A program made the position numbers and the translations under genes. DNA of 35,452 bases from a virus. The stretch spans positions 1 through 35,452 of IMG/VR virus record IMGVR_UViG_3300035698_022718. One strand, given 5' to 3'. Positions 1 to 21,050 of the stretch are shown here, in pieces; the first letter of the stretch is position 1, and each line of letters begins with the position of its first letter. Below the pieces are notes generated by a model. That model worked only from the letters and a program-made list of their open reading frames with translations, was not told the origin of the DNA and did not search any database.

Positions 1-494
1 AAACGATTATTTCGCTTGTTTCTCTGTTGTTGTTTTCTCGTTGCCCAATAACAGTTTTTCTTATGGTATCCCTTATCATTATTTCTTCGTTCTAATGTAA
101 GCCCATCAGGACGCTCACCCATATCTTCCAAAAAGTTCGGAAATGAATTTAACCATCTCTCACAAACGGTTATCCCTCGTCCTCCATAATCTTTGTAAGC
201 TTTATTTTTCGGATTAGTACATCGTTGAATCATCCCGTCCCATATCCGATGGATTTGAGATATTTTTCTGTTTTTGCAATGACCGTGTTTGGTATTTACT
301 TTCAGAATAATTTCTTTTCGCAGGCATCCACAGCTTTTTGTATGGCCACTTTTGAGACTGGAGCCAAGAACAATTTTTTCTTTCCCGCAATCACACCTAC
401 ATAACCATCTATGATGCCCCCATTTATCTCTCTCCACCCGTTTAATTACGGTAAGCCTTCCAAATCTTTGTCCAATTAAATCAGGCAGCTTCAT
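1..494 (-). CDS. Free-standing HNH homing endonuclease-like protein (3' end cut by window edge)
   Basis: The reading frame starts at ATG 494, which overlaps the TAA stop of the upstream gene (TAATG), and runs off the left edge after about 164 codons. The visible protein starts MKLPDLIGQRFGRL, then has a zinc-finger-like CRCDCG and SCGCL pair, then the GGRGITVCERW, NFLEDMGERP and NNDKGYHKKNCYWAT blocks. The same blocks occur in full-length homologues at 2741-3382 and 30971-31612. Proteins of this kind are common in phages and are regarded as HNH-type DNA endonucleases with a C-terminal helix-turn-helix repeat; that C-terminal part lies outside the window here. Family assignment is from recalled motifs plus the internal paralogues. 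It is probably a selfish element placed between co-translated genes. Confidence 0.8.
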   Translation of the reverse strand, partial: MKLPDLIGQRFGRLTVIKRVERDKWGHHRWLCRCDCGKEKIVLGSSLKSGHTKSCGCLRKEIILKVNTKHGHCKNRKISQIHRIWDGMIQRCTNPKNKAYKDYGGRGITVCERWLNSFPNFLEDMGERPDGLTLERRNNDKGYHKKNCYWATRKQQQRNKRNNR

Positions 495-1985: not shown

Positions 1986-2751
1986 TGGTCCGCCCCTGTT
2001 GTCTGCGCTGTGCCGTAATCTGCTGTACGATCTGGTCGCTTTGCAACATTAACTGTTGAGTTGAGACACTCTGTTCTGTTATCGTGTTAGTATGAAGCGG
2101 AGAAGGAATGTGATAGATTAGACCTATTTCTGAAGCTCTCGACAGGAGATCGTATGCCTCTCTTGCTTGTAGCTGTTCGGTAAAACCGGCTTGGAGTTTT
2201 TGAAATACTTGGGTGCGTATGAGAAAGTTGTTGTCATACGGAAAAGATTGTGTCAATCTGTTTATATCAAAAGCTGGCTTGAATTGTCTTTCTATTCTTC
2301 CATCAGGATAATGGTCGTCGCAATCACTAACAACGCAAGCAACAACAGGAAATTGCTGAAAAACACCAATCGCTTGTGAAATTTTATCTGGAGCGAACCA
2401 ACTGGCTGGATCGCAGAATCCAAAAATAGTTGTACCTTGATGTCCCATTTGCATTGCGACATTAAGTGTATGAGCCGTAGTAGTTTTTTGTTTACGGAAA
2501 ATCTTAATTGGTACACTATCAATTCCTTTTTCAAATTCAGGAGGCAAACCAGTTTGGCCATCTCTTTCGATCGGCTCTGCTCCTAGAAATTGACACAGAA
2601 CATCATATGTTCCATCGGTACTATCATTATCTCCAACGATGACCTTATTAGCAGAACGAATTCCTCCGATCACTGACTCGATTGCGCGGACAATAGTCTT
2701 GGCATTATTTTCTGTGGCAATAATAATCGTAATTTTTTCGTTATCCTTCAT
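1975..2751 (-). CDS. Family 2 glycosyltransferase (GT-A fold)
   Basis: 258 aa. The N-terminus ITIIIATENNAKTIVRAIES followed by KVIVGDNDSTDGT is the nucleotide-sugar binding half of GT2 enzymes (usual form VDDGSTDGT). Where the metal-binding DXD is expected the protein has GFCDPASW, so the motif is degenerate. A later VVSDCDDHYPDGR could contribute acidic ligands. No membrane segment is seen, so the protein should be cytoplasmic. The start overlaps the end of the HNH gene upstream by 11 nt, so its ribosome binding site lies inside the HNH 3' end. Donor and acceptor cannot be told from the sequence. Confidence 0.85.
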   Translation of the reverse strand: MKDNEKITIIIATENNAKTIVRAIESVIGGIRSANKVIVGDNDSTDGTYDVLCQFLGAEPIERDGQTGLPPEFEKGIDSVPIKIFRKQKTTTAHTLNVAMQMGHQGTTIFGFCDPASWFAPDKISQAIGVFQQFPVVACVVSDCDDHYPDGRIERQFKPAFDINRLTQSFPYDNNFLIRTQVFQKLQAGFTEQLQAREAYDLLSRASEIGLIYHIPSPLHTNTITEQSVSTQQLMLQSDQIVQQITAQRRQQGRTSGK

Positions 2752-3382
2752 TTTTTCTCTTGCACTTTCTAACCGGTGTCTTTAATGCCTTTTCGATTGG
2801 CCAACCGAGATAAATGCGGCTTTTAACAACACTATAGGGCATATTATGCTTTTCGCATAATTCTATTAAAAGCCATCTTTCTCCCCCATGGGTTACAAAA
2901 AGGTTATTCCGCTTATTTCTCTGTTGTTCTTTCGGAGTAATCCAACAACAATTAGATTTGTGATACCCCTTATCGTTATTCATTCGATCAATTTGGTGTC
3001 CTTTAGGGCGATCTCCCATATCCTCAAGAAAATTCGGGAAAGAATTTAACCATCTTTCGCAAACCGTAATACCTCGACCACCATAATCTTTATAACGTTT
3101 ATCTTTCGGGTTGGTACATCTTTGAATCATACTGTGCCATGATTCATAGGTTCTCGTTCCCTTCCCCTTTATGGTGTGGCCATGTTTCAGAGCATTATTT
3201 TTTGCTAAACAACCACAACTTTTTGTATTCCCACTTCTGAGATTATTACCTCCAATGATTTTTTCTTTGCCACAATCGCACCTACACAACCAATAAGATT
3301 TTCTCCATTTATCTCTTCCATCAAATCGAATAACGATAAGCCTCCCAAATCTTTGCCCAACTAAATCAATAAATTTTGGCAT
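2741..3382 (-). CDS. Free-standing HNH homing endonuclease-like protein
   Basis: 213 aa. Order of blocks: FIDLVGQRFGRLIVI; a CRCDCG...SCGCL zinc-binding pair (residues about 34-58); the core YGGRGITVCERW, FLEDMGDRP, IDRMNNDKGYHKSNCCWIT (about 100-150), which would hold the HNH-like catalytic residues; and a C-terminal helix-turn-helix repeat ending GWPIEKALKTPVR. It is paralogous to 30971-31612 and to the partial gene at the left edge. It sits 6 nt after the stop of the unknown gene at 3389 and overlaps the following GT2 start, a typical placement for a selfish gene that does not disrupt translation of its neighbours. Endonuclease activity is inferred from family membership. Confidence 0.85.
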   Translation of the reverse strand: MPKFIDLVGQRFGRLIVIRFDGRDKWRKSYWLCRCDCGKEKIIGGNNLRSGNTKSCGCLAKNNALKHGHTIKGKGTRTYESWHSMIQRCTNPKDKRYKDYGGRGITVCERWLNSFPNFLEDMGDRPKGHQIDRMNNDKGYHKSNCCWITPKEQQRNKRNNLFVTHGGERWLLIELCEKHNMPYSVVKSRIYLGWPIEKALKTPVRKCKRKNEG

Positions 3383-4643: not shown

Positions 4644-5663
4644 CTATGCCAATCTTCCCACCGGACCTCGTACTACTTTCCAAAATGCTTGATCCCATTC
4701 ATCAAGGAACCGTTTTTGCCCAAATTGTTCCAATACGGTCTTTCTGCCAGCATCGCCAATACGACGAGCCTCATCCTGATGATCAATCACCCATTTTAAT
4801 CGCTCTTGCATCGCTTTCGGATCATTGGTGATAAAACCATTGACACCATCTTCTATGAATTCAGGCATTGCAGTAGTTGCCGTGGTAACAATTGGACAAC
4901 CAACACTCATCGCTTCAAGTAAACTAAACGAAGTCGTAGACCATAAAGTTGTATTAAGAAAAACCGATGCACGACGATAAAGCTCTCTCAAATGATCAGC
5001 ATTGTCAGCATTTTTGGAAAATCCCGGCGAATCACCCCATGGATTAGTTGGAAGACCTTTGGTGACTTCTTGATACAGATCAAAACCACAAATTTGGTTT
5101 CTTTGTGGATAATTCCATACCGCAGTTATTACTTTACCATCGCCACCAATCCACCCATTCCAGTAATCTGTATCCATTCCGTGTTTAATAACCGTGACAT
5201 TTTGATCCTCGGGGTCACGCAACCAAGCTCCGACCGAAAAGTCGGCCATAAAGATGTCGTGAGAGCACGGTAAACGACCTGTTCGTTCTGTGGTTTCGTC
5301 GGGCCAGTCCGGCCAGGGCAGCGTATGTTCGGCTTGCAATAATGGACAATTTAGTTGTTGAGCTAATTGGACCATTATGGGATAATGATCAATGCGGTTT
5401 TGACTAAGTACTAAATCAAATGTGATATCGCTTTTTAGTTGCCCATTAATATCTCCTCCCCCCAGAGGAATAACATTTGATGGCATTTCGCGTTCTTTTC
5501 GATTCCAAGGATGAAAACGAGGGTGTTGTAGCATAAAGAAGGTATGCCCCGTCTTTGCTAATGTTGCTTGATATGCCTCATGGTTGAGTGCAAAAAGAAT
5601 ATTTAAGGGACGAGTCTTATCTCTATTGATACTTCTTAAAAGCGAAGATAATGGTGATGCCAT
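4644..5663 (-). CDS. GT-B glycosyltransferase (GT4-like)
   Basis: 339 aa. N-terminal Rossmann half (PLNILFALNHEAYQATLAKTG) and C-terminal half with SFSLLEAMSVGCPIVTT, then MPEFIEDGVNGFI, the donor-binding block of GT4-type enzymes; the first Glu of the EX7E pair is replaced. A later QERLKWVIDHQDEARRIG helix and C-terminal closing helix complete the fold. The start codon follows AGGAGG with 6 nt spacing, and that SD lies inside the remnant of an HNH gene (5636-5725). Likely transfers a sugar from a nucleotide donor in the cytoplasm; specificity is unknown. Confidence 0.88.
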   Translation of the reverse strand: MASPLSSLLRSINRDKTRPLNILFALNHEAYQATLAKTGHTFFMLQHPRFHPWNRKEREMPSNVIPLGGGDINGQLKSDITFDLVLSQNRIDHYPIMVQLAQQLNCPLLQAEHTLPWPDWPDETTERTGRLPCSHDIFMADFSVGAWLRDPEDQNVTVIKHGMDTDYWNGWIGGDGKVITAVWNYPQRNQICGFDLYQEVTKGLPTNPWGDSPGFSKNADNADHLRELYRRASVFLNTTLWSTTSFSLLEAMSVGCPIVTTATTAMPEFIEDGVNGFITNDPKAMQERLKWVIDHQDEARRIGDAGRKTVLEQFGQKRFLDEWDQAFWKVVRGPVGRLA

Positions 5664-5725
5664 TTACTTCCTCCTTGTTCAATTACTGTCCATCTTCCAA
5701 ATTTTTGTCCGATTAAATTATTCAT
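5636..5725 (-). pseudogene. Relic of an HNH endonuclease N-terminus (29 codons)
   Basis: Reading from ATG 5725 gives MNNLIGQKFGRWTVIEQGG, then SKW, a short tail and TAA at 5636-5638. This matches the first 20-25 residues of the three HNH homologues in this window (LIGQRFGRLTVI..., LVGQRFGRLIVI..., LTGKRFGRLIVL...), after which homology stops. Like an intact copy, its ATG overlaps the stop of the upstream gene by 8 nt. The AGGAGG inside it now acts as the ribosome binding site for the GT-B gene starting at 5663. Best read as the scar of a lost homing endonuclease. Confidence 0.75.
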
Positions 5726-6899
5726 TTAATAATCCCCGCGCAATCTTCCCGATTTTCCCATAACTAAATTCCCTAGCCCTTGCTGCTGCTGCTTGACCAC
5801 GAATATGTAGAGAGCCATCTTGCCATTCTCGGTACGCCTGTTTCATGCAAACCTTAAGGTGCTCTATATCAGGATCATACCACGATTCCGAGGCCGTGTA
5901 TAAATCTGGAAAGCTTTCGAGTGCTCCAAAGCACGGAGTAAGTCGCCCATCTATTAACCATCCTGTATATATCTCACCGGGATGTGTAAATTGTTGTTTT
6001 TCAGGCGACCAATGGGATGCCGCTTGGCCATAAGCGAGTTCGGGATAAGCGCCCCAGTTACTCAAGATTACTGGTTTACCAAATTTCATTGCGTCATGCG
6101 CTGGGATACCCCATGCCTCGCCATGAGAGGGAGAAACGAACACATCGCACGCTGCATGCAATTGATCTAGTTTGTTGTCTGGCAGATAGTCGGTAATGGC
6201 GATTATTGGTGGGTAACATGGAGTTTTTGTGTAAATATGCATAGCTGCCTTAATATCTGTTGCCATCTTACGAATATAGTCAACTGTCGTTTCGGCAGAT
6301 TGTCCCGGTAAGTTAGTTTTAATTACTAAAGCAACATCGTCTCGTAAATTAAAAGTACCATAATAAGCGCGAAGCAAAGCGGCGAAATTCTTTCTACGAA
6401 TTTGTTCTCCAATAGTATAAAAAACGCACTTACCTCGTAATGATGGTAAAGATAGTGGGGTTGGCGAACTATTAAGCTTTGAGATGTCGCAAGAGTGAGG
6501 AAAGATTTTAATTGGTACTACTACATTACTATCTTTAGCGGCTTGTGCGTTTTGAATTGATGGTACCCAAATTTCATCCATTAAATTGCAGCAATGAGAC
6601 CAATTGGAACGAGTAAAATGGGTGGTTTCCCAAGTGAAAAACCCAATATTTTTTACATTAGCCTTATACTCAAACAAATGCGGCAAAATATGTTGAAAGA
6701 CCACATCTACCCCATCCGTAGTCTTATCCTCTAAATGTTCGACTTGCTTGGCTAATACATGGTTTTTAGATTGAGATAAAGAAACGGTACGGGTAACAAC
6801 ATCAATGCCTCCTTGTTCTAACGCAAGTGCATTGCGAATAGCGGCATTACTATAACCCGTCCCGTCACGGAATACCCCTATATAGCATATTTTTATCAT
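5718..6899 (-). CDS. GT-B glycosyltransferase (GT4 family)
   Basis: 393 aa. N-terminal domain: IKICYIGVFRDGTGYSNAA, with the glycine-rich acceptor-side loop. C-terminal domain: VFYTIGEQIRRKNFAALLRA (the linker strand and donor-site Arg/Lys typical of GT4) and SPSHGEAWGIPAHDAMKFG, an EX7D version of the EX7E motif that binds the nucleotide sugar. NWGAYPEL follows, as in family members. The start overlaps the intein-bearing glycosyltransferase by ATGA, so the two are co-translated and probably act in one pathway. No signal peptide or membrane segment. Confidence 0.9.
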   Translation of the reverse strand: MIKICYIGVFRDGTGYSNAAIRNALALEQGGIDVVTRTVSLSQSKNHVLAKQVEHLEDKTTDGVDVVFQHILPHLFEYKANVKNIGFFTWETTHFTRSNWSHCCNLMDEIWVPSIQNAQAAKDSNVVVPIKIFPHSCDISKLNSSPTPLSLPSLRGKCVFYTIGEQIRRKNFAALLRAYYGTFNLRDDVALVIKTNLPGQSAETTVDYIRKMATDIKAAMHIYTKTPCYPPIIAITDYLPDNKLDQLHAACDVFVSPSHGEAWGIPAHDAMKFGKPVILSNWGAYPELAYGQAASHWSPEKQQFTHPGEIYTGWLIDGRLTPCFGALESFPDLYTASESWYDPDIEHLKVCMKQAYREWQDGSLHIRGQAAAARAREFSYGKIGKIARGLLNE

Positions 6900-9670
6900 A
6901 TTACCACCGCGTTAATTTGGTCATTATCCATAGGTTTTATTTTCGCTAAACGTTTTTGTTCCGATTGATTCCGTTTTGTCAATTCTTGCAAGAAATATTG
7001 GACCAATTGTTGGCGATCAAAGGGTACTCGTTTATCTCCCTGTGTTCTTGCTCCACTATTCAAAGCTTTCGTCCACTCTCCAGCAAAATGAGTTCTAGCC
7101 ATATCGGGCCGTTGCCAAATGTGAGAGATAACCCATCGTACAAACTCAGTGTTATTCATATCTTGCTTAGGTGGAGTGAGGTTGGGCTGATGTATCCTGG
7201 ATTCTGGGGAGAACCATGTGGTCTGTGGGTCTTTGATTTTAATTTCTCGGATTACTTGTCCCCAAATTGCTGCGGTTCTATCCCAACTATATCTTTGCAT
7301 TTTTTGGGTTTGACCATATGTATCTACTAATTCAGTGGCATATGCTCTTGTTTTTTGACTTTGTTCTATGCGTTGTGTTTCACTTTGTTTGAGAAAACGA
7401 TCAAGTTTATTTGCGAAGTCTTGATTGTCTGGCAAAGCGCGTCGTTGTTCAGTTTCGATTATGGCTTCCCAGAAGAAACGTTCGATACGAATTGGGATAC
7501 TCGTTGGACATTGAAAATAGTCCTCCATGGCTGAATATGGCATAGCTGCAACAGGTACCCCACAAGCCATTGCTTCTAGGGCTGGCATCCCTGCACCCTC
7601 ACAGATGGCATATTGGACATGAAGATCAAATGTTTTCATAATATCGGCAAGTACAGTGCGAGGGCATGAATGACCAGCGTTCGGAGGATGTGCTGCCATT
7701 GCGCCGCATTTACGACATGTAGTTAATTCTCCTGAGAAAAAGGCAGGATAAGCCGTGTTACAGTTGCCACATAGATAGGTCATAATAACTCTATTGCCAA
7801 CTTTGAAGTCTTTAATAGCTTTGCCAATATCGTAACCCACATCAGGGTAGCTAGTGTGAAGGTATAAAAAAGTTCTTTTGGCCAATTCGAGATGCCCTTT
7901 GGCTTTGGATTTATGTAACCATTTGGCATAGGCTTCAATAAGATCATAATATAATTTTCTTTTTTGGTTTCGAGCCGTCATACCTATAAGAATAGCATTC
8001 GGATCAATACCCAATTTTGCTTTGTGGTCTCTTTTGTTATCTGGTGGCTTGAATACATCAAGATCAACGCCTGGGGTCGCGATGGTGATTAATTTTGTTT
8101 CTGGTCTGCCTGTCCGTTTAAGCAAATCCATTCCGTATTTAGAATATGTTAAAACGCCATCACATCGCTTATACATATCTAACCACAATTCTCGTTGAGG
8201 TTCTCCATCAATAGTAGGCATGGCGAGAAAAACGAAGTTTTGTCTAAATGCCGATCTATCTATAAATTCACAATTATGAACTGCAAAAGAAGTTACATAT
8301 GAGTTGTCTTTTGCAACTTCAAAATTATAAACATCATGTTCTTTAACACTTTTGATTGTTATATCTTTAACTGTCAAAAATATATAATCATTATTACTTC
8401 TAGTCGTATCTCTTTCTGTTGGTGAACAACAATCATTATAGACTTGTTTGAAACCATCAAGAGATTTAGCACTAATACCCATAATGTATCGATAATGATC
8501 CCCCGGACCTTTGCCAGTGGGGTTTTTATTGTACGACATAGATGGAACTATTCCCAATCGACAAAACAACATAAATGTTTGATACGCTAAATTTTTGCTT
8601 ATTGTATTGTATGATCCACGACGATTATTGAGACAGCCATCGCCCCTTGTCAGTCCGCATAATAATCCAGTAATTTTTTCATTAGGAAGTTGATATAATT
8701 GTTTGGTAATCTTTTTGTTTCTGGCGTGTTCATTGCAATGAGATAAAAAGAATTTCCCGATCTTTTCTCCGTATGCCCGGATTACACTACAATTTTCTCT
8801 TCTATGAATTTTTGCGTCAACAGAAAAATAAGTCATAATTAATTGACGAATATCTTCAATATAATTTATTGCCTTATGGTTAAATGTTAACTGAATACCT
8901 TTAACTCGGCCATTTGCTCGCCTACCTTGATACAATAGACATCCTTGTGCTAAATAATAACCTATTAATCTACATAAATCAATGGAATATCTACTGTCGT
9001 CAATAATATTTTTAGCAATAGGTAAACACAAAAAATCATCTTTGGTAATTTCTCTCGCAGATTTCCACGATGGCTTGTTTTTTGACCATTGTTGATTTAA
9101 AGAATGCTGTTTGTGTCTGTTTATAACCAACACGGGATGTTCTGATGTCATCGTAATAGGGATGGTTAGATTGCTAGCTTTAATAGTATATAAATCGCCG
9201 CTATACTTTTTTCGAAAAACATTGATAACATTATGAATATTACCATTATGAGTCAAAACACTATCTTGCAAAGATATATTTTGAATAGGCTTAACTGAAC
9301 CGTCTGCGAGAACAATTAAAGTACCACTTGCAAAGCACATCCAAAAATCTCTGTGATCGACAACTATATCTGGTTTAAAATCGAGACATACATCGTCTAT
9401 CTTTAACTCGCCAAATTGGTTAGTGGGTTTAGAACTATATATTTGCATAGCTTGTTGATTATTGCGAGATGGAGCTACCGGATAAAACTTCCAAGGGACT
9501 TGTTGGCATCGTGGGTCATCGTCGTGCCCGTAACACCCAATTTCCCCAATTGCGAATTCACCTGTAGCATGAAGTCGTTTAAGAACTTCATTTGTATAAG
9601 TTGAAAACCCCGTAGCGAGAAATGAAGCTTCTCCAACAAATAAGACGCGACGTTTACGCACTATCGCCAT
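6896..9670 (-). CDS. GT4-type glycosyltransferase interrupted by a LAGLIDADG intein
   Basis: 924 aa precursor from ATG 9670 (GGAG 5 nt upstream; a GTG at 9676 is the weaker alternative). Residues 1-111 are the N-extein (RRVLFVGEASFLATGFSTY, a GT-B N-domain start), residues 112-466 are an intein, and the rest is the C-extein. After splicing the enzyme would be about 569 aa. The C-extein has ILIGMTARNQKRK (donor domain start) and CEGAGMPALEAMACGVPVA, a full EX7E motif. Between them an inserted zinc ribbon (CGNC...CRKC) interrupts the donor domain, and about 150 residues beyond the GT fold extend the C-terminus. Overlaps the sigma-like gene by 17 nt and the next glycosyltransferase by ATGA. Confidence 0.9.
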   Translation of the reverse strand: MAIVRKRRVLFVGEASFLATGFSTYTNEVLKRLHATGEFAIGEIGCYGHDDDPRCQQVPWKFYPVAPSRNNQQAMQIYSSKPTNQFGELKIDDVCLDFKPDIVVDHRDFWMCFASGTLIVLADGSVKPIQNISLQDSVLTHNGNIHNVINVFRKKYSGDLYTIKASNLTIPITMTSEHPVLVINRHKQHSLNQQWSKNKPSWKSAREITKDDFLCLPIAKNIIDDSRYSIDLCRLIGYYLAQGCLLYQGRRANGRVKGIQLTFNHKAINYIEDIRQLIMTYFSVDAKIHRRENCSVIRAYGEKIGKFFLSHCNEHARNKKITKQLYQLPNEKITGLLCGLTRGDGCLNNRRGSYNTISKNLAYQTFMLFCRLGIVPSMSYNKNPTGKGPGDHYRYIMGISAKSLDGFKQVYNDCCSPTERDTTRSNNDYIFLTVKDITIKSVKEHDVYNFEVAKDNSYVTSFAVHNCEFIDRSAFRQNFVFLAMPTIDGEPQRELWLDMYKRCDGVLTYSKYGMDLLKRTGRPETKLITIATPGVDLDVFKPPDNKRDHKAKLGIDPNAILIGMTARNQKRKLYYDLIEAYAKWLHKSKAKGHLELAKRTFLYLHTSYPDVGYDIGKAIKDFKVGNRVIMTYLCGNCNTAYPAFFSGELTTCRKCGAMAAHPPNAGHSCPRTVLADIMKTFDLHVQYAICEGAGMPALEAMACGVPVAAMPYSAMEDYFQCPTSIPIRIERFFWEAIIETEQRRALPDNQDFANKLDRFLKQSETQRIEQSQKTRAYATELVDTYGQTQKMQRYSWDRTAAIWGQVIREIKIKDPQTTWFSPESRIHQPNLTPPKQDMNNTEFVRWVISHIWQRPDMARTHFAGEWTKALNSGARTQGDKRVPFDRQQLVQYFLQELTKRNQSEQKRLAKIKPMDNDQINAVVI
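8273..9337 (-). mobile_element. Intein with LAGLIDADG homing endonuclease inside a glycosyltransferase
   Basis: 355 residues in frame with the host gene. Block A starts at Cys1 (CFASGTLIVLADGS), block B is ITMTSEHPVLVI with the Thr/His pair, and the C-terminal splicing blocks read VYNFEVAKDNSYVTSFAVHN followed by Cys+1. The terminal His-Asn and the Cys nucleophiles at both junctions are intact, so it should splice. Two endonuclease motifs are present: LIGYYLAQGCL and LLCGLTRGDGCL, forms of the LAGLIDADG pair. The insertion lies between DHRDFWM and CEFIDRSAF in the N-terminal GT-B domain. Confidence 0.93.
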
Positions 9671-10250
9671 AACCACTCCGATTCAACTTCTTACGAATTC
9701 GACGAATTCTCGTCCAAGACTGTTTACGACTCAGACCTAATGCTCCCACATTATCGTCATATTGAGCCAGAATTAATGCTTTATCTTCAATGGTTAATTG
9801 GGGCAATGCTAGAATGTCATCTAAAGCTAGAGATGTTCCTGGGTCAATGTACAGCGATTCTTGTAACATAAGCAAAGAGGCCGTTGGTTTAATCAATTGA
9901 TGTATTGCTTTCCACATATTAGCTGTGATCTTAAGCTGTTGACGAATTGTTTTTTCTGATTGTCCAATCTCCAACCTACGTCTCACCTTGACCGCTAACG
10001 TTTTAACCTTGAGTGGTGCGGATAGTGGAAATGTAGCTTTAATGGCAGCATCTCTTATAGAGCGGGCTATTACCGCAGTTGCATATGTATGAAAATTGCG
10101 CTTTTGCCACCTATCTTTACGAATCTCGGCCAGTTTCAAATACCCCTCTTGGATATAATCTTCTTCACTAGTACAACTGTTGGGATAGATAGCCGCCATC
10201 TTTCTCGCCCAACAAATAATGAATTTATCTAGCGACCGTCTATGACGCAC
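9654..10250 (-). CDS. Phage sigma-70-family-like factor
   Basis: 198 aa. Starts at GTG 10250 with GGTGAGG 6 nt upstream. Residues about 5-70 resemble sigma region 2 (SEEDYIQEGYLKLAEI, then NFHTYATAVIARSIRDA, the usual DxIQEGxxGL and FxTYAxxxIxxxI pattern). Residues about 78-120 could be a region-3-like helical part. Residues about 150-190 (LTIEDKALILAQYDD, then LGLSRKQSWTRIRRIRKKL) form a helix-turn-helix as in region 4. Likely directs RNA polymerase to phage promoters; the repeated AACAA-N16-TATAAC element in this window is a candidate target (inference). Located 15 nt downstream of ssb and overlapping the intein-bearing glycosyltransferase. Confidence 0.75.
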   Translation of the reverse strand: MRHRRSLDKFIICWARKMAAIYPNSCTSEEDYIQEGYLKLAEIRKDRWQKRNFHTYATAVIARSIRDAAIKATFPLSAPLKVKTLAVKVRRRLEIGQSEKTIRQQLKITANMWKAIHQLIKPTASLLMLQESLYIDPGTSLALDDILALPQLTIEDKALILAQYDDNVGALGLSRKQSWTRIRRIRKKLNRSGYGDSA

Positions 10251-10265
10251 TTAAAGCCTCACCCC

Positions 10266-10715
10266 TTAAAATGGGATTTCCTCGTCAGGAAGATCACTGG
10301 TAGTTGTCGCAGCAGAGGCAGGAACAGGTTCATCTTGAGCAGGCTTTGGTTTTGGCTCATCTTGGTTATTTTTACTATTTTTAGCAGTTCTTTGACATAA
10401 TTGAAAATCTCGTGCCGCAATCGAAAATGCTACTCGTTTTTGGCCTTCCTGATTCTCCCAACTCTCCTGCCTAAGATAGCCACTTACATAAACAGACTGC
10501 CCTTTCTTTACTAATTCGGCAAACTTAACAGCACGATTACCCCATAGCTGAACCCGAACAAATGTAGCTTCAGATTGCCATTCATCTTGCTTATCCTTGT
10601 AAGAACGATTGAATGCAAGATTAACTGAACAAACGTTAGCACCATTCTTTCCTACACTTCTAAGTTCGGCATCTGCCGTTGCAACACCAACACCTGTAAC
10701 CATCAGTTCTGCCAT
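10266..10715 (-). CDS. ssb: Single-stranded DNA-binding protein
   Basis: 149 aa from ATG 10715, chosen because GAAAGGA lies 7 nt upstream and MAELMVTGVGVATAD is a natural SSB start; the longer frame would add nine unrelated residues. The OB fold is clear: VCSVNLAFNRSYKDKQDEW, ATFVRVQLWGNRAVKFAELV, KKGQSVYVSGYLRQESWENQ. A disordered Pro/Lys/Asp linker leads to the acidic tip DEEIPF, the conserved peptide by which bacterial SSBs recruit replication and repair partners. It is the first gene of its unit, 47 nt after a promoter-like element. Coats single-stranded DNA during phage replication. Confidence 0.95.
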   Translation of the reverse strand: MAELMVTGVGVATADAELRSVGKNGANVCSVNLAFNRSYKDKQDEWQSEATFVRVQLWGNRAVKFAELVKKGQSVYVSGYLRQESWENQEGQKRVAFSIAARDFQLCQRTAKNSKNNQDEPKPKPAQDEPVPASAATTTSDLPDEEIPF

Positions 10716-10870
10716 TTTTTTTCCTTTCAAGGTTATACGCAAAACACCTAGTACCTTATAAAGTTATACGTCCAAGTAGAGAGATTGTTTCATAAATTAT
10801 AGATTATCGGACTTTTTTACGATTTTATTTCTAAATTGATGGATTGTTGTTAGATATCGTATCTCTTGAT
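10716..10870. other. Intergenic region between dnaE C-half and ssb
   Basis: The longest gap in the window. It is AT-rich and holds the promoter-like element at 10763-10789, the ssb ribosome binding site next to 10716, a second GTATAAC without the rest of the motif near 10732, and a 5-bp inverted repeat (AGATA/TATCT) at 10852-10864 just after the dnaE stop. No open frame, tRNA-like fold or T-run terminator was seen. Confidence 0.6.
10763..10789 (-). promoter_or_regulatory. Promoter-like 27-bp element upstream of ssb
   Basis: On the minus strand it reads AACAA, 16 bp, TATAAC, with ACTTGGACG directly before TATAAC. It is one of four copies sharing 18 identical columns out of 27. TATAAC ends 47 nt before the ssb start. 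A -35/-10 reading is an inference. Confidence 0.7.
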
Positions 10871-13800
10871 TCATATCAACTTTTGAATATCCGAAATAAT
10901 AAAACTACCATTTTGTTTTTTTCCATAAAATAAACCGATTAAATCGTCTTTACAAAAATGTTTGAGTCTGCTATAGGCGTCAGGGAAAATGACGGCATAA
11001 TCGACAGAATACGTAGAATCTGATATTGTCAAAAAGCACATAGACGATCCCGGGTTCTTGCCTCTTTTGGTTTTTATATGCTTAACCCCATCTATGACAG
11101 CGCAAATAACCATTGATTTATTATTCACCGCCTGCGCCACTTCTAAACACGAATGGGTCGCCAAACTATCATCTGCATCGTCAGCAGGGGAGCATGACAA
11201 AGAAATTCCAAGAAAGTGCCTCTCGGCGGTTGCATTGCCTAAGCTGGTATCGTGGATCGGTTTTTCGAGGATAGCTACTTTCTCTGCTACTGCCGAACGG
11301 CGAGCGTCGGTCGAACAAGCCAACTTCTGTGGAGTATCGTTATATCCGTCTGCTAACAGGCTGTCAGATATCGTCTTTTTTGTTTGACCTTTGAGGCTTT
11401 CTTCTGTAATTCCAAGTCTGTCCATGGCTAAAGAAATTATTTGGGCTTTTTTCATCTGGGCCAAGGTAAGCTTTTTGGGCACAGGTTTCGCCATTTCTTT
11501 TAGAATTGCCTTTGTTGTCTGGCCCTCTTTGAGTTTAGTGAAAAAGAATTCTCTTTCTTTAACCGTGAGTCCTTTGGCTTCGACTTTCTTGCCTGCGGAA
11601 TTGAGAACTGTTGTTCCCAGAATCACTTCAAGTTCTCGGATCATTGTAACTCGATCTAAGGCATAGCAATCGCATGCTCCAGACTTGATCAGAGCCACTC
11701 CAACGTCACGATGGAAATGAGGAACTGTTGTTAAAAAATCACCCCACTTTTCGAGAGAATCTGCGCTTATTGTGGTAACTTTTTGGATTGCGGTTTGCCC
11801 TACTCCTCTAATGTGAGATAAGCCAAATGCTATTTTCTTTTGAGTTCCTTCCATCATTTTGAAATGAATATTGCGTCGTCGAATATCTGGCGGTACGACC
11901 ATTACCCCGAAAAGTCTAGCATCTTGTACTAATCCATAGATTTCTTCTTTTGGATCATTTTTATATGTGGAGTAAGTAAGGTAGCTGGTGAAAAATTCAT
12001 GGGGAAAATGACATTTTAACCAAGCGGCTTGAAAAGCGATTTCGGCGTAGGATCGTGCATGCGATTTATTGAAAGAATTGGAAGTTACAATATCATTACT
12101 GATTACAAAATTATGATTAGGAATATCCATTGTTACATCCCAAACTTCTTCAGTTTCATCTAATTTTATAGACTTAATTCGCAAGATATCAACAGGATAT
12201 CCTTTTTCTCCTCGTCTCATTCTACCATTCGAATAATCATGTTTTTTGTGACACGAAACGCACAACTTCATGAGATTACTTGGATGACTGTTGGTTCTGT
12301 CACCATTTAAGTGGGCAATTTCTATACGACAACCAGTTTTATCGCAAAATTCGCATATGTTGGGGACGTTATCTTTATATTTTCTGTAGTTCGTAAACGA
12401 CCCATTGGTGTATGCTGGATTGGCTGCTCCATTGGGAAATCCACATTGAGCCTGAGCATACGGACGCTGTTTGGCATTTTTGTTTTTATCACTGAATTTG
12501 CTGATATTGCTAAATTCAGATTGTTCATATTCTCCACATACATATAGGCTATCGCCAACACTTAGTTGACATAATGTTTTTTCGCCATTTGGAGTTGGAA
12601 ATTTATGTTGTACCGTTGTTCTAATTGTTGCACCATTTTCCAATGTTAATCTGAATAATTGTTGTTGTCCGGCAGGTTGTATATTGACAATAGTATTAGG
12701 ACGAATACGACCATCTTTGCACAACGATAATCCCTTTCCATAGTTCCCTAATCTATTCCATTTTCGCCTTAATACTTCGTGGCCATGTTTTTTAGCGTAT
12801 TCAAGATTATTCTTAATCCAGTACATGTGTTTGACAGAATATCCACATGATTTTAGAAACCTACCACCATTCGGTCTACGGATTATTGTATCACCAGAAA
12901 TACAATATCTTTGACTTTTCTCAATCCATCCGAAAATTTCTTCAGCAATACCTTTGCCAATATTGCTGTGACTTTTACATCCCGCAACGAACTTCGACTT
13001 TAGTTTCGCCATCAATTCCGGCAGTTTCTTGCCGATGGCTTTGCGAAGTCCATCGGCATCTTCTGGTTTGAATCCCGCAAGGTCTACACCAATACGGATC
13101 GCTTGTTCTTGATAGACTAAACATCCGTAAGTCGGTTCTAGAATAGGTCTGAGCATTGGATGAAGATACGTGGCTTGTTTGCGATTAAACTTAATATCTA
13201 CGTAATCTTCGGTCATTCCAGAGTTGTGAACTACAAAATTACCAGCCAGATAATTGTTGTGAGGATTCGTGACAGCTATGTCATATAAATTTTCTTCACC
13301 CTCGTATTTAATTTCTTCAACTCTTACGAAACGTGTATCAGATATTGATGGCAATCTATATTGTTCTCTCATTTTAATAATAGTCTCTTTGGATAACTTG
13401 CCATCAGTGTACATTCGATGGTGATTGGGGCACATCCATACTAAGTTTTCTGGATCATTGTTTATTCTTCTGTTCCCATCCAAATGATTAACATCCAAAG
13501 ACGCCTCGGTCCAATCGCAACAAGCACAGTGGTATTCCCAATGATAAAAAGCTATGTTCCTGAAGTTTTTATATCCCGGTGCGTTTTTGCCAGAATTGTC
13601 TTTGCGAATACCTCCGCATCGTTTGCCGGTAAAAATGGCTACATAATCTCCAGGATGAATATCCTCTAGTTTTTTCCATCCATTTTTAGTTAGAAAGGTG
13701 TGTTTTTTAGTCGCATGAATATTTAGCCAACTGGCTTGCGAAGCAAACGTCCAACTAGTTCGTACTCTCAAGGAATAGGTTGTTCCTGTCCCTTTTGGTA

Positions 13801-14242
13801 TTACGGCTTCCACAGTATTGTCAATCAGTTTTCCTGTTTGTTCATCAACAGAAACGATTTTTAGTTTACGACCACCCTGATACTTATTGGATTCGAATTG
13901 CTTCCAATCATCGTACAAGTCTTTGATTGTAGATCGCCAAATGTAGCGTTTACCACGTTGCACCCTGCGTCTACCTATTAGCGTATTTTCACCGATACAC
14001 TCTAATGGCCCAGGACGAATGAGGCTGACAAGCGCAGATAATTCTTCTATGCTTGTTGGTTTTACCTTCTTAGCCCAATCTTGTCCCAGTTTTCTCTCAA
14101 GTTGGAAAATTCCAATTGTGTGGCCACTTGCAATGAGTTGCCAAACAGCAGGGCAGTTAAGGGGAATATCATTAATGTTGAACTTGCCCTTTTCAACAGT
14201 ACAATCGCAATTACTGAATTTAATAATCGTACTTGATTGTAT
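10871..14242 (-). CDS. dnaE: DNA polymerase III alpha subunit, C-terminal half, with two inteins
   Basis: About 1123 codons if started at ATA 14242; about 588 aa of extein after removal of both inteins. Extein landmarks in order: FNINDIPLNCPAVWQLI, TIGIFQLERKLG, LSALVSLIRPGPLE, SGMTEDYV, LEPTYGCLVYQEQAIRIG, DADGLRKAIGKK, SFNKSHARSYAEIAFQAAWL, VPPDIRRRNIHF, FGLSHIRGVGQTAI, and a C-terminal OB-like VDYAVIFPDAYSRLK. These match bacterial DnaE from just after KFDFLG onward; the PHP and catalytic aspartates are on a separate gene at 22739-25084. There is no in-frame ATG, GTG or TTG before the first intein. ATA at 14242 overlaps the upstream TAA (TAATA) and follows AAAGGG by 7 nt. GTG 13963, the first ordinary start, lies inside intein 1 and would destroy it. 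Confidence 0.88.
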   Translation of the reverse strand: MQSSTIIKFSNCDCTVEKGKFNINDIPLNCPAVWQLIASGHTIGIFQLERKLGQDWAKKVKPTSIEELSALVSLIRPGPLECIGENTLIGRRRVQRGKRYIWRSTIKDLYDDWKQFESNKYQGGRKLKIVSVDEQTGKLIDNTVEAVIPKGTGTTYSLRVRTSWTFASQASWLNIHATKKHTFLTKNGWKKLEDIHPGDYVAIFTGKRCGGIRKDNSGKNAPGYKNFRNIAFYHWEYHCACCDWTEASLDVNHLDGNRRINNDPENLVWMCPNHHRMYTDGKLSKETIIKMREQYRLPSISDTRFVRVEEIKYEGEENLYDIAVTNPHNNYLAGNFVVHNSGMTEDYVDIKFNRKQATYLHPMLRPILEPTYGCLVYQEQAIRIGVDLAGFKPEDADGLRKAIGKKLPELMAKLKSKFVAGCKSHSNIGKGIAEEIFGWIEKSQRYCISGDTIIRRPNGGRFLKSCGYSVKHMYWIKNNLEYAKKHGHEVLRRKWNRLGNYGKGLSLCKDGRIRPNTIVNIQPAGQQQLFRLTLENGATIRTTVQHKFPTPNGEKTLCQLSVGDSLYVCGEYEQSEFSNISKFSDKNKNAKQRPYAQAQCGFPNGAANPAYTNGSFTNYRKYKDNVPNICEFCDKTGCRIEIAHLNGDRTNSHPSNLMKLCVSCHKKHDYSNGRMRRGEKGYPVDILRIKSIKLDETEEVWDVTMDIPNHNFVISNDIVTSNSFNKSHARSYAEIAFQAAWLKCHFPHEFFTSYLTYSTYKNDPKEEIYGLVQDARLFGVMVVPPDIRRRNIHFKMMEGTQKKIAFGLSHIRGVGQTAIQKVTTISADSLEKWGDFLTTVPHFHRDVGVALIKSGACDCYALDRVTMIRELEVILGTTVLNSAGKKVEAKGLTVKEREFFFTKLKEGQTTKAILKEMAKPVPKKLTLAQMKKAQIISLAMDRLGITEESLKGQTKKTISDSLLADGYNDTPQKLACSTDARRSAVAEKVAILEKPIHDTSLGNATAERHFLGISLSCSPADDADDSLATHSCLEVAQAVNNKSMVICAVIDGVKHIKTKRGKNPGSSMCFLTISDSTYSVDYAVIFPDAYSRLKHFCKDDLIGLFYGKKQNGSFIISDIQKLI
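12077..12904 (-). mobile_element. Intein 2 of DnaE C-half, HNH endonuclease
   Basis: 276 residues. Starts CISGDTIIRRPNG, has TTVQHKFPTPNGEK as block B (Thr/His), and ends NHNFVISNDIVTSN before Ser+1. An HNH nuclease is embedded: CEFC...IEIAHLNGDRTNSHPSNL, then KLCVSCHKKH. Inserted between SQRY and SFNKSHA, the same position as the naturally split DnaE intein of cyanobacteria (Y before CFNKSHS). The penultimate residue is Ser, not His, as in some functional inteins. Confidence 0.92.
13223..13999 (-). mobile_element. Intein 1 of DnaE C-half, HNH endonuclease
   Basis: 259 residues. Starts CIGENTLIG directly after the conserved RPGPLE, has the block B-like NIHATKKHTFLTKNG, and ends NLYDIAVTNPHNNYLAGNF then VVHN before Ser+1 (SGMTEDY). 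The central part carries an HNH nuclease: CACC...LDVNHLDGNRRINNDPENL, then WMCPNHH. Splicing restores the RPGPL-SGM motif of the polymerase. All nucleophiles needed for splicing are present. Confidence 0.92.
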
Positions 14243-14967
14243 TAGGATTCCCTTTCGTTAGTAAAAAGTTCATCGAAATATCGTTGTATTTGCTTTTCAT
14301 TGCAGCATTCTCCAAGCCGTTTTCCAGACCCGCAAACACAAGGAGACGTAGTAGCCATAGTCTTTCTTGCAGAATTTTTGTCAATAGGGATTTTTGTGTC
14401 GTACCCAAATCGTTCGAAATCCTGTTCAGCCCATTGTTGTACTAATTCGGCATTCTTATAATCTCTAAAATAATGCGACCAATGTGGTCTTAAATGCCCT
14501 CTAACGTTATATTTGAGAGTTGGCGAATCGCCTTCCCAGAAAGGCAAGGTAGTTATATCATCTTCTAAATGTTCAAACCGTAAAGTACGATTAAGTTGTA
14601 TCTTTCCCAAAAAGCTCGACATAGAGACCATCGGCAATCCACCAAAACCACCATTTACCTTTGGGGTATTGAGCATCTGCAAAAATGGCACAAACTCTTT
14701 ACCACACGTTTTGACAATCCCATAGTCAAATCTTGGCCAAGAAGCAATAGCAGAAAACCACAGCGAAACTGCACGGGAATAAGGGTTTCTCACAATGCAA
14801 AAGATAAAGTAGTCCTTATATTTTTGCGGAATAGTATTGGGATGTCGAGCCCACTTACCTCCAGCTTTATATTCACCTCCGTATGGCTTAAGAATCTGCT
14901 CCATCATCATTGTTCCTGTTTTTGGAATACACATAAATACGAATTTATATTTTTCGCTAACGATCAT
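14242..14967 (-). CDS. Sulfotransferase-like protein with C-terminal SEC-C zinc motif
   Basis: 241 aa. IPKTGT at residues 14-19 is the 5'-phosphosulfate loop and RNPYSRAVSLW from residue 60 the 3'-phosphate site of PAPS-dependent carbohydrate sulfotransferases; LRFEHLEDD fits the later conserved segment. The tail at about 210-222 is CVCGSGKRLGECC, a SEC-C zinc-binding motif, not usual in this enzyme family. It would transfer sulfate from PAPS to a sugar, which fits the many glycosyltransferases around it. First gene of its unit, 52 nt after a promoter-like element. Its stop overlaps the apparent ATA start of the dnaE C-half, so it may provide translational coupling for the polymerase. Confidence 0.85.
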   Translation of the reverse strand: MIVSEKYKFVFMCIPKTGTMMMEQILKPYGGEYKAGGKWARHPNTIPQKYKDYFIFCIVRNPYSRAVSLWFSAIASWPRFDYGIVKTCGKEFVPFLQMLNTPKVNGGFGGLPMVSMSSFLGKIQLNRTLRFEHLEDDITTLPFWEGDSPTLKYNVRGHLRPHWSHYFRDYKNAELVQQWAEQDFERFGYDTKIPIDKNSARKTMATTSPCVCGSGKRLGECCNEKQIQRYFDELFTNERES

Positions 14968-17073: not shown

Positions 17074-18023
17074 TATATTTGTACCCCAACCTGTCGCCAT
17101 TGTTGAACAATATCATTCCACATCGCTTCAGTCATCCCACCATCGGGAAGAAGGCGGTAATATTCATTATACAGATTGTATCCATTTTTGGCAATCCGCA
17201 GTGTAGTTTTGCGGTCGCTGAAAGCCCGTTCGCAAATTTCCTCTAGGTCTGACAGATCGGGTCGCACGTCCAGATAATGTTGTTTCGGTATCATACGATT
17301 GAGCCATCGGAATTGATCAAGACAGCAAGTAACAACACATGATTGCATTCCCATGCTCTCAAAGTGTCGATAGGTCAAAATACTGTTACCCGGCATACAC
17401 AGCGACAGCAACGATCCATTGATAGAATTTAGATAGAACGACCGAGGTCTTTGTCCTGCCTCTATCCCTGTAATATTCCGCTGTGCGCCTGGCTCCTGTC
17501 CAATAATGCCACCTCGAAACCAAGATTTGTCTTTTAACATATGACAGGCTCTAATGCGCAGGTTGTCTTCTGTTTTTAAGTTTCCAGTAGGTAAACCATA
17601 AAATGAAATTATAGGTTTCTTGTCTATTGATGGATTCTTTAGGCCGTCAACTAGAAAGGGCTGCATTACAACTTGCTTACCAGTAATACGGGAATCATAA
17701 TCAGTATCTTTGTGAGTCCATTGAATTTTTGCAAAAGCTATAGCTTTATCTATCACTTCGTCAGGAAGACCCCGACCTTCCATATGGGTATTGAACGAAC
17801 TCCAATCACCAAGAGATACGAGCATGATTTGGCCACGAAATTGAATCAATTCTTCTACAGTGGTATCGTCTATTTTATGCGGCCACATGCAATCAACTAA
17901 CCACAAATCGGCATCAGTGATTTGTCGATCAGTGAATATGTGTCCATGTCTTACCAGCGTAGCTATAATTGGCCTCATTCTCAATGGAGTTGATGCGTGT
18001 ATGATGGTTGCTCTTATCTTCAT
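17073..18023 (-). CDS. GT-B-like glycosyltransferase (exostosin-like C-terminus)
   Basis: 316 aa, ATGA overlap with the GT32 gene. The N-terminal half is a Rossmann-type domain (IRATIIHASTPLRMRPIIAT). The C-terminal half has SLCMPGNSILTYRHFESMGM followed by QSCVVT, the pattern LxxPGxSxxTxRxxExMxxGxxPV of exostosin and related capsule glycosyltransferases. DLSDLEEICERAF is the usual closing helix. The family is diverged, so the assignment rests mostly on the C-terminal motif and context. Confidence 0.72.
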   Translation of the reverse strand: MKIRATIIHASTPLRMRPIIATLVRHGHIFTDRQITDADLWLVDCMWPHKIDDTTVEELIQFRGQIMLVSLGDWSSFNTHMEGRGLPDEVIDKAIAFAKIQWTHKDTDYDSRITGKQVVMQPFLVDGLKNPSIDKKPIISFYGLPTGNLKTEDNLRIRACHMLKDKSWFRGGIIGQEPGAQRNITGIEAGQRPRSFYLNSINGSLLSLCMPGNSILTYRHFESMGMQSCVVTCCLDQFRWLNRMIPKQHYLDVRPDLSDLEEICERAFSDRKTTLRIAKNGYNLYNEYYRLLPDGGMTEAMWNDIVQQWRQVGVQI

Positions 18024-18763
18024 GAACTTATAGCCGCTTTTCTAAACAGTTGTCCCAACAATGTTGGACTATCGAGCAACTCGTGTCGGTTCATTCTGAG
18101 GAAAGGACTATTGCATTGTTTAAACATCTCGTGGAAAAGCATACATCCGTATGATCCCTTAATACAATACTTGTTAATCGATTCTTTGCCAGCAAATCGG
18201 AATGCTTCCCATGATGGAATTGGCATAAGCCATTGATGATCAAGATGATGATATTGATGGCCTCTTACCGCTTGACGAAGTGTTCTCGGACCCAACGACC
18301 CCCACTTAAAAATGTGTTCTGGGGGATGAAGATTAAAAGCGTGCTCGATCAAAGCCACAGCTTTACTAATAATTGTGCCATTTTTGGTAGATATTAAAAA
18401 TCCACTCTCTGGTTCTCCGTATTGAAGAGTGGGGGAGGCTGTTGCCACTAAATCAATATTGTTTTGCAATAAATCAATCAACGGTTTCAGACTTTTGAAC
18501 AATATCAAGTCGCTGTCTAACCAAATCCCTCCGTGTTCTTTTAGCAACGAATATCGCAAGTAATTAGATTTGTTATTAATTTGTGAGATTTGGAAAAAAC
18601 TACTAGGTATGTTTGGCAAAAATTGCTGAACATTCTCACTAGTTACCAGATGGATGTCAAAATCTTTTTCGCAATGTTTACGGATAGTTTCCCAGCAAAG
18701 TTGAACGTATGCTGGGGGAACTGTTTGATCCGATGGATTATCCCAATACAGCCAAATATGCAT
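18020..18763 (-). CDS. GT32-type capsular glycosyltransferase
   Basis: 247 aa from ATG 18763, which follows the upstream TAA by 1 nt; the longer frame to 18808 only adds overlap. MHIWLYWDNPSD is the characteristic start (IPKxIWxxW in relatives). NKSNYLRYSLLKEHGGIWLD followed by SDLILF is the signature of the GT32/DXD sugar-binding domain (KSDxxRYxxLYxxGGxYxDxD). ESGFLISTKNG and the C-terminal histidines (QYHHLDHQW, LFHEM) fit the family. Transfers hexose from a nucleotide donor. Confidence 0.88.
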   Translation of the reverse strand: MHIWLYWDNPSDQTVPPAYVQLCWETIRKHCEKDFDIHLVTSENVQQFLPNIPSSFFQISQINNKSNYLRYSLLKEHGGIWLDSDLILFKSLKPLIDLLQNNIDLVATASPTLQYGEPESGFLISTKNGTIISKAVALIEHAFNLHPPEHIFKWGSLGPRTLRQAVRGHQYHHLDHQWLMPIPSWEAFRFAGKESINKYCIKGSYGCMLFHEMFKQCNSPFLRMNRHELLDSPTLLGQLFRKAAISS

Positions 18764-18764
18764 T

Positions 18765-19499
18765 TTACACTTCTTTCTTCCATCCAGGAGGTACCTTAAG
18801 AAGTTCACTGCGACAAATACCGTATTTAGTATTTAATCGCAGTCTATCTTGGCGCAATCTCGATCCCCATCTGTAGTCCTTGTATACTGGATTACTTGCT
18901 GGTTTATGCAATATGTCAACTATGGGTAGCATTGTAATTTTGAGTTTTCCCCGAATTCGAAGAAATAATGCTTCATGATCCCATACCAGAAAATCATTAT
19001 CCCAACCACCAGCTTGTTTGAATTTTTCTGTTCTAGCCATAAAACACTGTGGCACATAATCGTGCAACGGATAATCGAATGATTTTCCTTTTGATGCGTT
19101 CCAGCGATAAAATACACCATTTTTTATACAAGTAAGCATTCCTTTGCGATTTTGGTTATCGGAAACATTTGTTCCAACAATGTCTATGTCTGTATTCTCC
19201 AAAATGTCATATCTAATTTGTAAATTTGTGTTCAAAGTAAAAATAAAATCGTCATCTAACGTCATAAAATATGCGGTTTTTACCTTGGATACGGCTAAGT
19301 TTCTGCCAATGGAAATGCCTGTGGCAAATGGCAGTATATGATATTCAACACCTGGGATTTCTGTTGGATGCTCACTGTCATCCACCACAACAACACGGAT
19401 ATCTGGGTAGTATTGTTTAATGCTTGCAATCAAACGTTGCACGCACCTTGGTCTCTCGAATGTTTTAACAATCAATGTTATGTCTGTTTCTACTGACAT
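18765..19499 (-). CDS. Family 2-like glycosyltransferase
   Basis: 244 aa. ITLIVKTFERPRCVQRLIAS and RVVVVDDSEHP form the nucleotide-binding half; SIGRNLAVSKVKTAYFMTLD then DDF provides a DXD-type metal site of the B4GALNT/GT2 pattern (RNxxVxxxxTxYxxxxDDD). WDNDFLVWDHEALFLRI is the catalytic-base region. SD AAAGGA lies about 10 nt upstream and the gap to the preceding stop is 1 nt. Confidence 0.88.
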   Translation of the reverse strand: MSVETDITLIVKTFERPRCVQRLIASIKQYYPDIRVVVVDDSEHPTEIPGVEYHILPFATGISIGRNLAVSKVKTAYFMTLDDDFIFTLNTNLQIRYDILENTDIDIVGTNVSDNQNRKGMLTCIKNGVFYRWNASKGKSFDYPLHDYVPQCFMARTEKFKQAGGWDNDFLVWDHEALFLRIRGKLKITMLPIVDILHKPASNPVYKDYRWGSRLRQDRLRLNTKYGICRSELLKVPPGWKKEV

Positions 19500-19500
19500 A

Positions 19501-20181
19501 TCAAGATTTCCTTTTCCACTCGGCTCCGTCCCAGTATGTTGATTCGGCTATTTGTTGATTTATTTTGCCAGCAGCGATTATGTTGGATTTAGGAGCTTGC
19601 GCATGCCATTGGTGCTCTACCGTCAATGGCACTACGACTATTTGACATCCATATTTGACTAAACGAACTCTAAAGTCAGTATCTTCATATCCCCATTCTC
19701 GTAAAAATGGATTGTATCCTCCTATGGCATCAAAATCGCATACTCGAAACATTTGATAAAAACCAGATCGATGTCTTTTATGAACTATAGAAAGTATTCC
19801 TTTTTCGTCATAGGCAGCTATGTATGGTTGTACATAAACCTTTTTATCTAGATTGCCAAAACACTTAATCGATTCTGCTATAATTGTAGGAGGCCACAAA
19901 ATATCGCATTCGGTACTAATCATTATTGGAGTATTGACATATTTCCTACCTAGATGCCTACCTTGTGATCGACTCAACCCTTTTACGGGTCTCCATTGCA
20001 ATTCACACGGTATTGCGTGTTCGTCGCGAAATTGTTGAACTATAGTTTGTATAGCGTCTAGGTCATCGCTACAATCTATAACGACGATTTTAGTAGGTTT
20101 GACAGTTTGCTTACCAACACTTCGCAAGCTATTTGCTAGATATTGTGGACGATTTCTACTGAGGTAACAAACGGTAATCAT
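19501..20181 (-). CDS. Family 2 glycosyltransferase
   Basis: 226 aa, ATGA overlap with the DPM1-like gene. MITVCYLSRNRPQYLANSLR and KIVVIDCSDD form the nucleotide-binding half; PIMISTECDILWPP carries the DXD-like ECD; GGYNPFLREWGYEDTDFRVR is the galactosyltransferase-type ED motif supplying the catalytic base. Compact single-domain GT-A enzyme, cytoplasmic. Confidence 0.88.
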   Translation of the reverse strand: MITVCYLSRNRPQYLANSLRSVGKQTVKPTKIVVIDCSDDLDAIQTIVQQFRDEHAIPCELQWRPVKGLSRSQGRHLGRKYVNTPIMISTECDILWPPTIIAESIKCFGNLDKKVYVQPYIAAYDEKGILSIVHKRHRSGFYQMFRVCDFDAIGGYNPFLREWGYEDTDFRVRLVKYGCQIVVVPLTVEHQWHAQAPKSNIIAAGKINQQIAESTYWDGAEWKRKS

Positions 20182-21050
20182 TTCATTTCCCCTTCTATCA
20201 ATCGGATTAATCTCATTATGAGTCGATGCACTATAAATTGCAATTTATTGTGACCAGTTATATATTGTTCATTACCGACCAGCCGTTGCAGGTCTTCTTG
20301 AATTGATACCAAAAGCTGTGTACGGTCATTGGACAATGGTGTGCAATCTTCTGTGATGAGTAAATGACGAGGTTGTCTCCATAGATATTGTAAAATGCGC
20401 AACGACTCTTTGACTGCCGATGTTTGCACGGACGATTTGGTTCCTATATAAGTAAATGGTATTTCAATGAATGATAAAAGTTGACAATAAAATTTGAATT
20501 CTGTTTGATAGAAATGACCAGTAGATTGAAATTGATCAAATGGCATTTTTACAGCAACTTTACGAGTGAATCCTTGTAGCCCGCTTGTACAATCGGAAAA
20601 TGGAAGTTGCAATACAAAATGAGCCAAGGCAGTGCCTAATCTACTTAATAATTTCCTTCGCCACAATACATTGACAAACTTTCCCCCATTGAATCTCGTG
20701 CCCATTACCAATGGAAATTGATCAAGAGCCTCGACAATTCTTGGAATTAGATGTGTTGGATGTCCAATATCTACTTCGATTATTTTTGTAGCATTTAATT
20801 TTATTGCATGCTGAACTCCACGAATATATGCCTTGGCTACGCCAGTTCCTTTCCCGATACACAAAACAACAATACGAGGATCGCATTTGGCCAATTTCCG
20901 AAGTGCGACATCAGAGCCATCTTGACAGAATGAATCAATTACTGTAATCCACAGATGCCAATTCACCTTTCGGAGTTCTTGGTACATAGTGTCAATGGAT
21001 TCTATCTCATTTCCAATAGGTGTAATAATCGCGATTACGTCATTTTTCAT
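20178..21050 (-). CDS. Dolichol-phosphate mannosyltransferase-like GT2
   Basis: 290 aa. AIITPIGNEIESIDTMYQEL and ITVIDSFCQDGSD form the first half; KIIEVDIGHPTHLIPRIVEA corresponds to the DPM1 DADxQHPP block (here DIGHPTH, the DXD altered). GTRFNGGKF and RRKLLSRLGTALAHFVLQLP then FSDCTSGLQGFTRKV are strongly DPM1/polyprenol-phosphate-glycosyltransferase-like. The C-terminus is basic and helical and could be membrane-peripheral but has no clear transmembrane span. May load sugar onto a lipid or polyprenol carrier of the host (inference). ATGA overlap with the radical SAM gene. Confidence 0.85.
   Translation of the reverse strand: MKNDVIAIITPIGNEIESIDTMYQELRKVNWHLWITVIDSFCQDGSDVALRKLAKCDPRIVVLCIGKGTGVAKAYIRGVQHAIKLNATKIIEVDIGHPTHLIPRIVEALDQFPLVMGTRFNGGKFVNVLWRRKLLSRLGTALAHFVLQLPFSDCTSGLQGFTRKVAVKMPFDQFQSTGHFYQTEFKFYCQLLSFIEIPFTYIGTKSSVQTSAVKESLRILQYLWRQPRHLLITEDCTPLSNDRTQLLVSIQEDLQRLVGNEQYITGHNKLQFIVHRLIMRLIRLIEGEMK

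Follow-up and report, generated by a model that had tools for sequence, protein, structure and literature searches.

A LAGLIDADG intein in a phage GT4-type glycosyltransferase gene family with four intein insertion sites

We have analysed a stretch of 35,452 nucleotides of viral DNA (IMG/VR record IMGVR_UViG_3300035698_022718; "the window") and confirm, by sequence, HMMs and predicted fold, that the segment at 8273–9337 on the minus strand is a class 1-type intein with a LAGLIDADG domain. Its host is confirmed as a GT4-type, GT-B glycosyltransferase gene. The intein itself is ordinary; what is unusual is the glycosyltransferase host family and the invasion of this family at four sites. The explanation that we hold with high confidence is that a self-excising element was acquired by homing, has since probably suffered decay of its endonuclease, and resides in a host gene that is a repeated target.

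Anatomy and setting of the intein

A single open frame of 926 residues spans 6896–9676 (−), and the intein takes up residues 114–468 (Table 1). The junctions read DHRDFWM/CFASG...AVHN/CEFIDRS and the boundaries are right to the base. Cys1, the TxxH of block B, the C-terminal His-Asn and Cys+1, that is, all of the class 1 residues, are present, bearing out the complete splicing motifs described in the initial annotation. In Pfam searches the insert matched Hom_end_hint (6.9e-9, with a score above its cut-off), Intein_splicing (1.2e-8; 35.3 bits against a cut-off of 35.8) and LAGLIDADG_3 (2e-4), the last lying, like TIGR01445, just under its cut-off. As Intein_splicing and LAGLIDADG_3 are marginally sub-threshold, the case for an intein is made by the sum of the evidence. 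In the PDB the intein's confident AlphaFold structure (pLDDT 88.6) is matched best by VMA inteins that carry a homing endonuclease (7qsu, E 7e-21); PI-SceI and I-DmoI are also matched, and two LAGLIDADG helices are recognised. The insert is more AT-rich than its surroundings, with a GC content of 32.4% versus 41.1% for the exteins.

The exteins match the Pfam profile Glycos_transf_1 at 2.2e-7, and at 6.1e-8 when joined. The structure modelled for L022 (pLDDT 79), a homologue without an intein, has a GT-B fold whose best matches are the GT4 enzymes MshA, BshA and a chlorovirus glycosyltransferase, and the EX7E motif, CEGAGMPALEA, was located at a position supported by the aligned motif of MshA. 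The profile and structure matches agree with the initial annotation, in which the intein-bearing domain is the N-terminal one of a GT4/GT-B enzyme; sugar transfer is the predicted activity of this enzyme. The precursor would be translated through the in-frame intein, and excision would proceed by an N–S shift at Cys1, transfer to Cys+1 and cyclisation of the Asn to release an intact enzyme of 571 residues.

Table 1 Features of the glycosyltransferase gene and its neighbours in the window
Feature	Position	Strand	Remarks
GT4-type glycosyltransferase gene	6896..9676	(−)	926-aa precursor; 571 aa after predicted splicing
N-extein, GT-B N-terminal domain to ...DHRDFWM	9338..9676	(−)	aligns with intein-free alleles
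Site-A intein, HINT and LAGLIDADG endonuclease domains	8273..9337	(−)	355 aa
Cys1, splicing nucleophile, block A CFASGTLI	9335..9337	(−)	
Block B T-S-E-H, intein residues 64–67	9137..9148	(−)	T64 and H67 do not vary among 15 glycosyltransferase inteins in alignment
LAGLIDADG motif 1 (block C) LIGYYLAQG	8942..8968	(−)	Gln131 in place of catalytic Glu/Asp
LAGLIDADG motif 2 (block E) CGLTRGDG	8636..8659	(−)	Asp233 kept
Block G, His-Asn at the C-terminus of the intein; Cys+1 comes next in the C-extein	8273..8278	(−)	
C-extein from Cys+1 (CEFIDRS), with Cys-rich insert and EX7E motif (CEGAGMPALEA)	6896..8272	(−)	
Second GT4 gene of conserved three-GT4 cassette	5718..6899	(−)	
Third GT4 gene of conserved three-GT4 cassette	4644..5663	(−)	
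Conserved upstream gene, sigma-factor-like by eye	9654..10250	(−)	overlaps glycosyltransferase start
SSB-like gene by eye, syntenic, upstream of glycosyltransferase	10266..10742	(−)	
Split DnaE, C-terminal half, with two HNH inteins	10871..14254	(−)	

The gene order DnaE-C, SSB, sigma-like, GT4-1, GT4-2, GT4-3 is conserved in most of the loci examined; in the most distant (L028, L030, L031, L043 and L039) the SSB or sigma-like gene was undetected or lay beyond the fetched stretch. Synteny with polymerase and SSB genes is consistent with a core role. The synteny with replication genes, seen in most loci, and the repeated invasion at four sites support the earlier suggestion of an important and conserved enzyme. 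No thymidylate-synthase-like enzyme was seen in eight related contigs, which lends no support to DNA glucosylation as the enzyme's job and does not amount to its exclusion. A large set of glycan-related genes is present at 1975–2751, 14242–14967, 18020–18808 and 18765–21982 of the window, comprising GT2-like genes (by eye), a capsular/GT32-like protein, a sulfotransferase and a radical SAM/SPASM protein.

In the window two same-strand genes, at 22739–25084 and 10871–14254, encode the halves of DNA polymerase III alpha; ~8.5 kb lies between them and includes glycan-modification genes. DnaE-C is found as a gene of its own in relatives too, and the break in the window's DnaE shows no split intein. 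Both inteins of the window's DnaE-C (PLE/C..HN/SGM and QRY/C..SN/SFNK) are of the HNH type, so that the glycosyltransferase intein does differ from them in endonuclease type, as first noted. The second adjoins what we take to be the site of the cyanobacterial split DnaE intein, and in two relatives (G004 and G008) a DnaE-C intein lies about four residues beyond it. RecA, DnaB and DnaE-N in the window are intein-free. About ten inteins were seen in a 160-kb phage contig, IMGVR_UViG_3300014914_000003 (the source of L010, with loci L051, L052, L053 and L025), in ribonucleotide reductase (two), RecA and DnaB (both Walker A), DnaE-N, DnaE-C (two), glycosyltransferase (two) and a terminase-like protein (by eye). 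A repeated family of small intergenic ORFs (QRFGRL...CDCG...SCGCL...YGGRGI; window 3–494, 2741–3382 and 30971–31612, and L005 4881–5519) resembles free-standing mobile endonuclease genes, and in L005 one of these lies between GT4-1 and GT4-2.

Occupied and empty alleles at four sites

The alleles compared number 29, the window included (26 distinct), and come from a wider homologue search and a junction search. Three pairs (L014/L015, L016/L033 and L035/L036) are apparently identical over the stretch compared and four alleles (L034, L035, L036 and L039) are partial. At least one intein is found in 17 of the 29; 12 are free of inserts throughout the gene, and many more are empty at site A. As three of the occupied alleles (L039, L041 and L043) came from a search that favoured site D and the window was itself the seed, the less biased occupancy is 13/25.

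The extein homologues in IMG/VR are ~70% identical to the window's, and in L005, L007 and L008 the gene lacks the insert and is otherwise colinear. Because phage homologues this similar do without it, the segment is an insertion and not a domain of the enzyme. The reading of it as an ordinary extra domain of the glycosyltransferase could appeal to the in-frame insert being free of stop codons, but it is refuted by the intein-free homologues, which, as the initial annotation had proposed, could be aligned around the insertion site; with all of the intein motifs and an intein fold in the segment, and with other inteins elsewhere in the same gene, we give this reading practically no credence.

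LAGLIDADG inteins occupy four sites in the 29 alleles. Site A follows RDxWM (window, L030 and L031); site B is just before MPTIDGEP (L004/L012); site C follows KPDIV (L006/L017, L010/L025, L014, L015, L023 and L034); and site D directly precedes the Cys-Glu with which the EX7E sugar-nucleotide motif begins (L009/L024, L010/L025, L011/L026, L027, L029, L039, L041 and L043). One allele, L010, carries two inteins, at C and D. In L030 the neighbouring GT4 gene (6019–8400) has an intein of its own within the EX7E loop (EAF/C..HN/CIPYIEA). C1, TxxH, HN and C+1 are kept in all 19 glycosyltransferase inteins, 18 from this gene and the one from the neighbour.

A scan for HNCEGxGxP, aimed at site-D-type inteins of any glycosyltransferase, gave eight matches in viral contigs, all of them inteins of the window's glycosyltransferase family, and six chance matches in bacterial genomes; by the patterns used, neither the site-D junction nor a close homologue was found in 84,980 bacterial and archaeal genomes. 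The C-extein had no match in isolated phages or in GTDB genomes. With the intein alone as query, IMG/VR yielded no close relatives, and isolated phages yielded only inteins of 20–35% identity, in other proteins where annotated. The literature searched, which had InBase and one major survey outside its scope, reports no glycosyltransferase intein.

At site A the +1 residue is Cys in all three occupied alleles (one column off in the alignment in L031), and in the empty alleles it is Asp (19), Ser (3), also Gln and Val, and Cys only once. Site B has Cys+1 in its one occupied allele and in none of the 27 empty ones. Cys+1 is already present in empty alleles at site D (14/18) and site C (7/22). Since Cys is almost confined to the occupied alleles at A and B, it may there have been brought in along with the intein or favoured by selection together with it; a similar contrast between invaded and empty alleles is known at MCM-d (PMC10643990).

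Proposed homing history and probable state of the endonuclease

The inteins group by site. In the intein tree site A is monophyletic with support of 98/97 and site D with 100/100, and site C forms one clade except for the long-branch L034. In the extein tree, where some placements are without resolution, the site labels are scattered and require three changes for A, three for C and six for D. Grouping by site and not by host gene is what would be expected of homing alleles. The site-C inteins of L017 and L025 are 95% identical (exteins 90%) and the site-D inteins of L025 and L029 66% (exteins 59%); that inteins at the same site are as similar as the exteins, or more so, hints at transfer. The identities for site A are 32–44%, the inteins of the window and its two relatives being only 32–36% identical, and do not suggest recent transfer at this site. 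In a local gene-conversion comparison around site A, with the out-of-register rows of L019 and L027 unused, L012 was nearest to the window, though not strikingly so. The element would have arrived through homing, driven by its endonuclease, from one large phage to a related one; sites A, B, C and D of the one enzyme each hold an intein type of their own, in different phages.

Both endonuclease motifs had been claimed in the initial annotation, which mentions neither the lost acid, nor the three further sites, nor the rarity of Cys+1 in empty site-A alleles. Both are indeed recognisable, but motif 1 has Gln at the position of a catalytic acid; of the acidic residues expected towards the motif ends, the window intein keeps only that of motif 2 (LAQG in motif 1, RGDG in motif 2). 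The other two site-A inteins have Glu at this position, their motif ending in AEG, and the intact inteins at the other sites Asp or Glu. The codon of Gln131, CAA at 8945–8947, is one base from GAA, and a sequencing error is a possible source. Acids of motif 1 are lost or displaced in three of the 19 glycosyltransferase inteins; L034 has lost both motifs and in L027 motif 1 is displaced. In the PhoVMA intein, the missing acids of blocks C and E accompany an inactive enzyme (PMC8966425). With one catalytic acid gone and the splicing residues intact, the window endonuclease is probably dead or crippled: the intein belongs to the LAGLIDADG fold family, its activity is doubtful, and homing has probably stopped or almost stopped.

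Three other readings of this state were weighed. That the intein is still a fully active selfish element, the Gln in motif 1 permitting cutting or nicking that supports homing, would draw on the Asp kept in motif 2 and the intact predicted endonuclease fold; we consider it unlikely, given the acid in every intact relative and the PhoVMA precedent (PMC8966425). Much less probable is domestication of the intein into a switch by which the enzyme's activity is delayed or made conditional. Splicing residues retained beside an impaired endonuclease would fit such a switch, and conditional splicing is described for other inteins (PMC5790916, PMC6195587), but there is no sign of regulation in the data, the empty relatives manage without an intein and its patchy presence fits a parasite. 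Slighter still is the chance that the intein has decayed beyond splicing and the gene is broken: an endonuclease short of one catalytic acid might indicate general decay, yet all of the splicing residues examined are present, the 926-residue frame is open and the EX7E motif of the glycosyltransferase is kept. The preferred reading is an intein with a probably decayed endonuclease that would still splice, splicing having presumably been kept because the enzyme is needed.

Inteins are thought to persist in indispensable proteins, chiefly those of DNA metabolism. The four-site invasion of a sugar transferase widens that rule and suggests that the enzyme has a central function in this uncultured lineage of phages. 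We propose, tentatively and as the less likely side of the question, that few intein hosts other than replication proteins are invaded as heavily as the GT4 enzyme with its four independent sites, that it is indispensable and conserved, possibly with a part in genome modification beside the polymerase genes, and that the window intein lies between loss of homing and fixation. One gene here provides, in its occupied, empty and decaying alleles, a natural series for study of the homing cycle, suited also to the question of why the +1 Cys is nearly limited to occupied alleles at A and B.

Relation to known systems

The window intein shares the layout of the VMA-type LAGLIDADG inteins (PI-SceI, TliVMA and PhoVMA), a HINT domain with a nested double-motif LAGLIDADG endonuclease. 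It differs from them in being shorter, in identity (<20% over the structural match), in its phage glycosyltransferase host and in the Gln that replaces one catalytic acid, PhoVMA being a known case of lost acids. The spliced enzyme's family has the GT-B fold and EX7E motif in common with MshA, BshA and the chlorovirus NY2A glycosyltransferase; identity is ~14%, and the window enzyme has a Cys-rich insert and an intein, the latter absent from those enzymes.

Mycobacteriophage inteins (PMC5050341) likewise occupy several sites (in TerL), lie at functional motifs and show allelic spread among phages. Their hosts are terminase, a RecB-like nuclease, methylases and nucleotide enzymes, and the string "glycos" does not occur in the text of that paper. 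A parallel in pattern is that of the MCM inteins of Haloarchaea (PMC10643990), where, as here, one conserved gene has four sites with patchy occupancy and some two-intein alleles, and the +1 residue at one site differs between invaded and empty alleles; the host there is a replicative helicase and here a phage sugar transferase.
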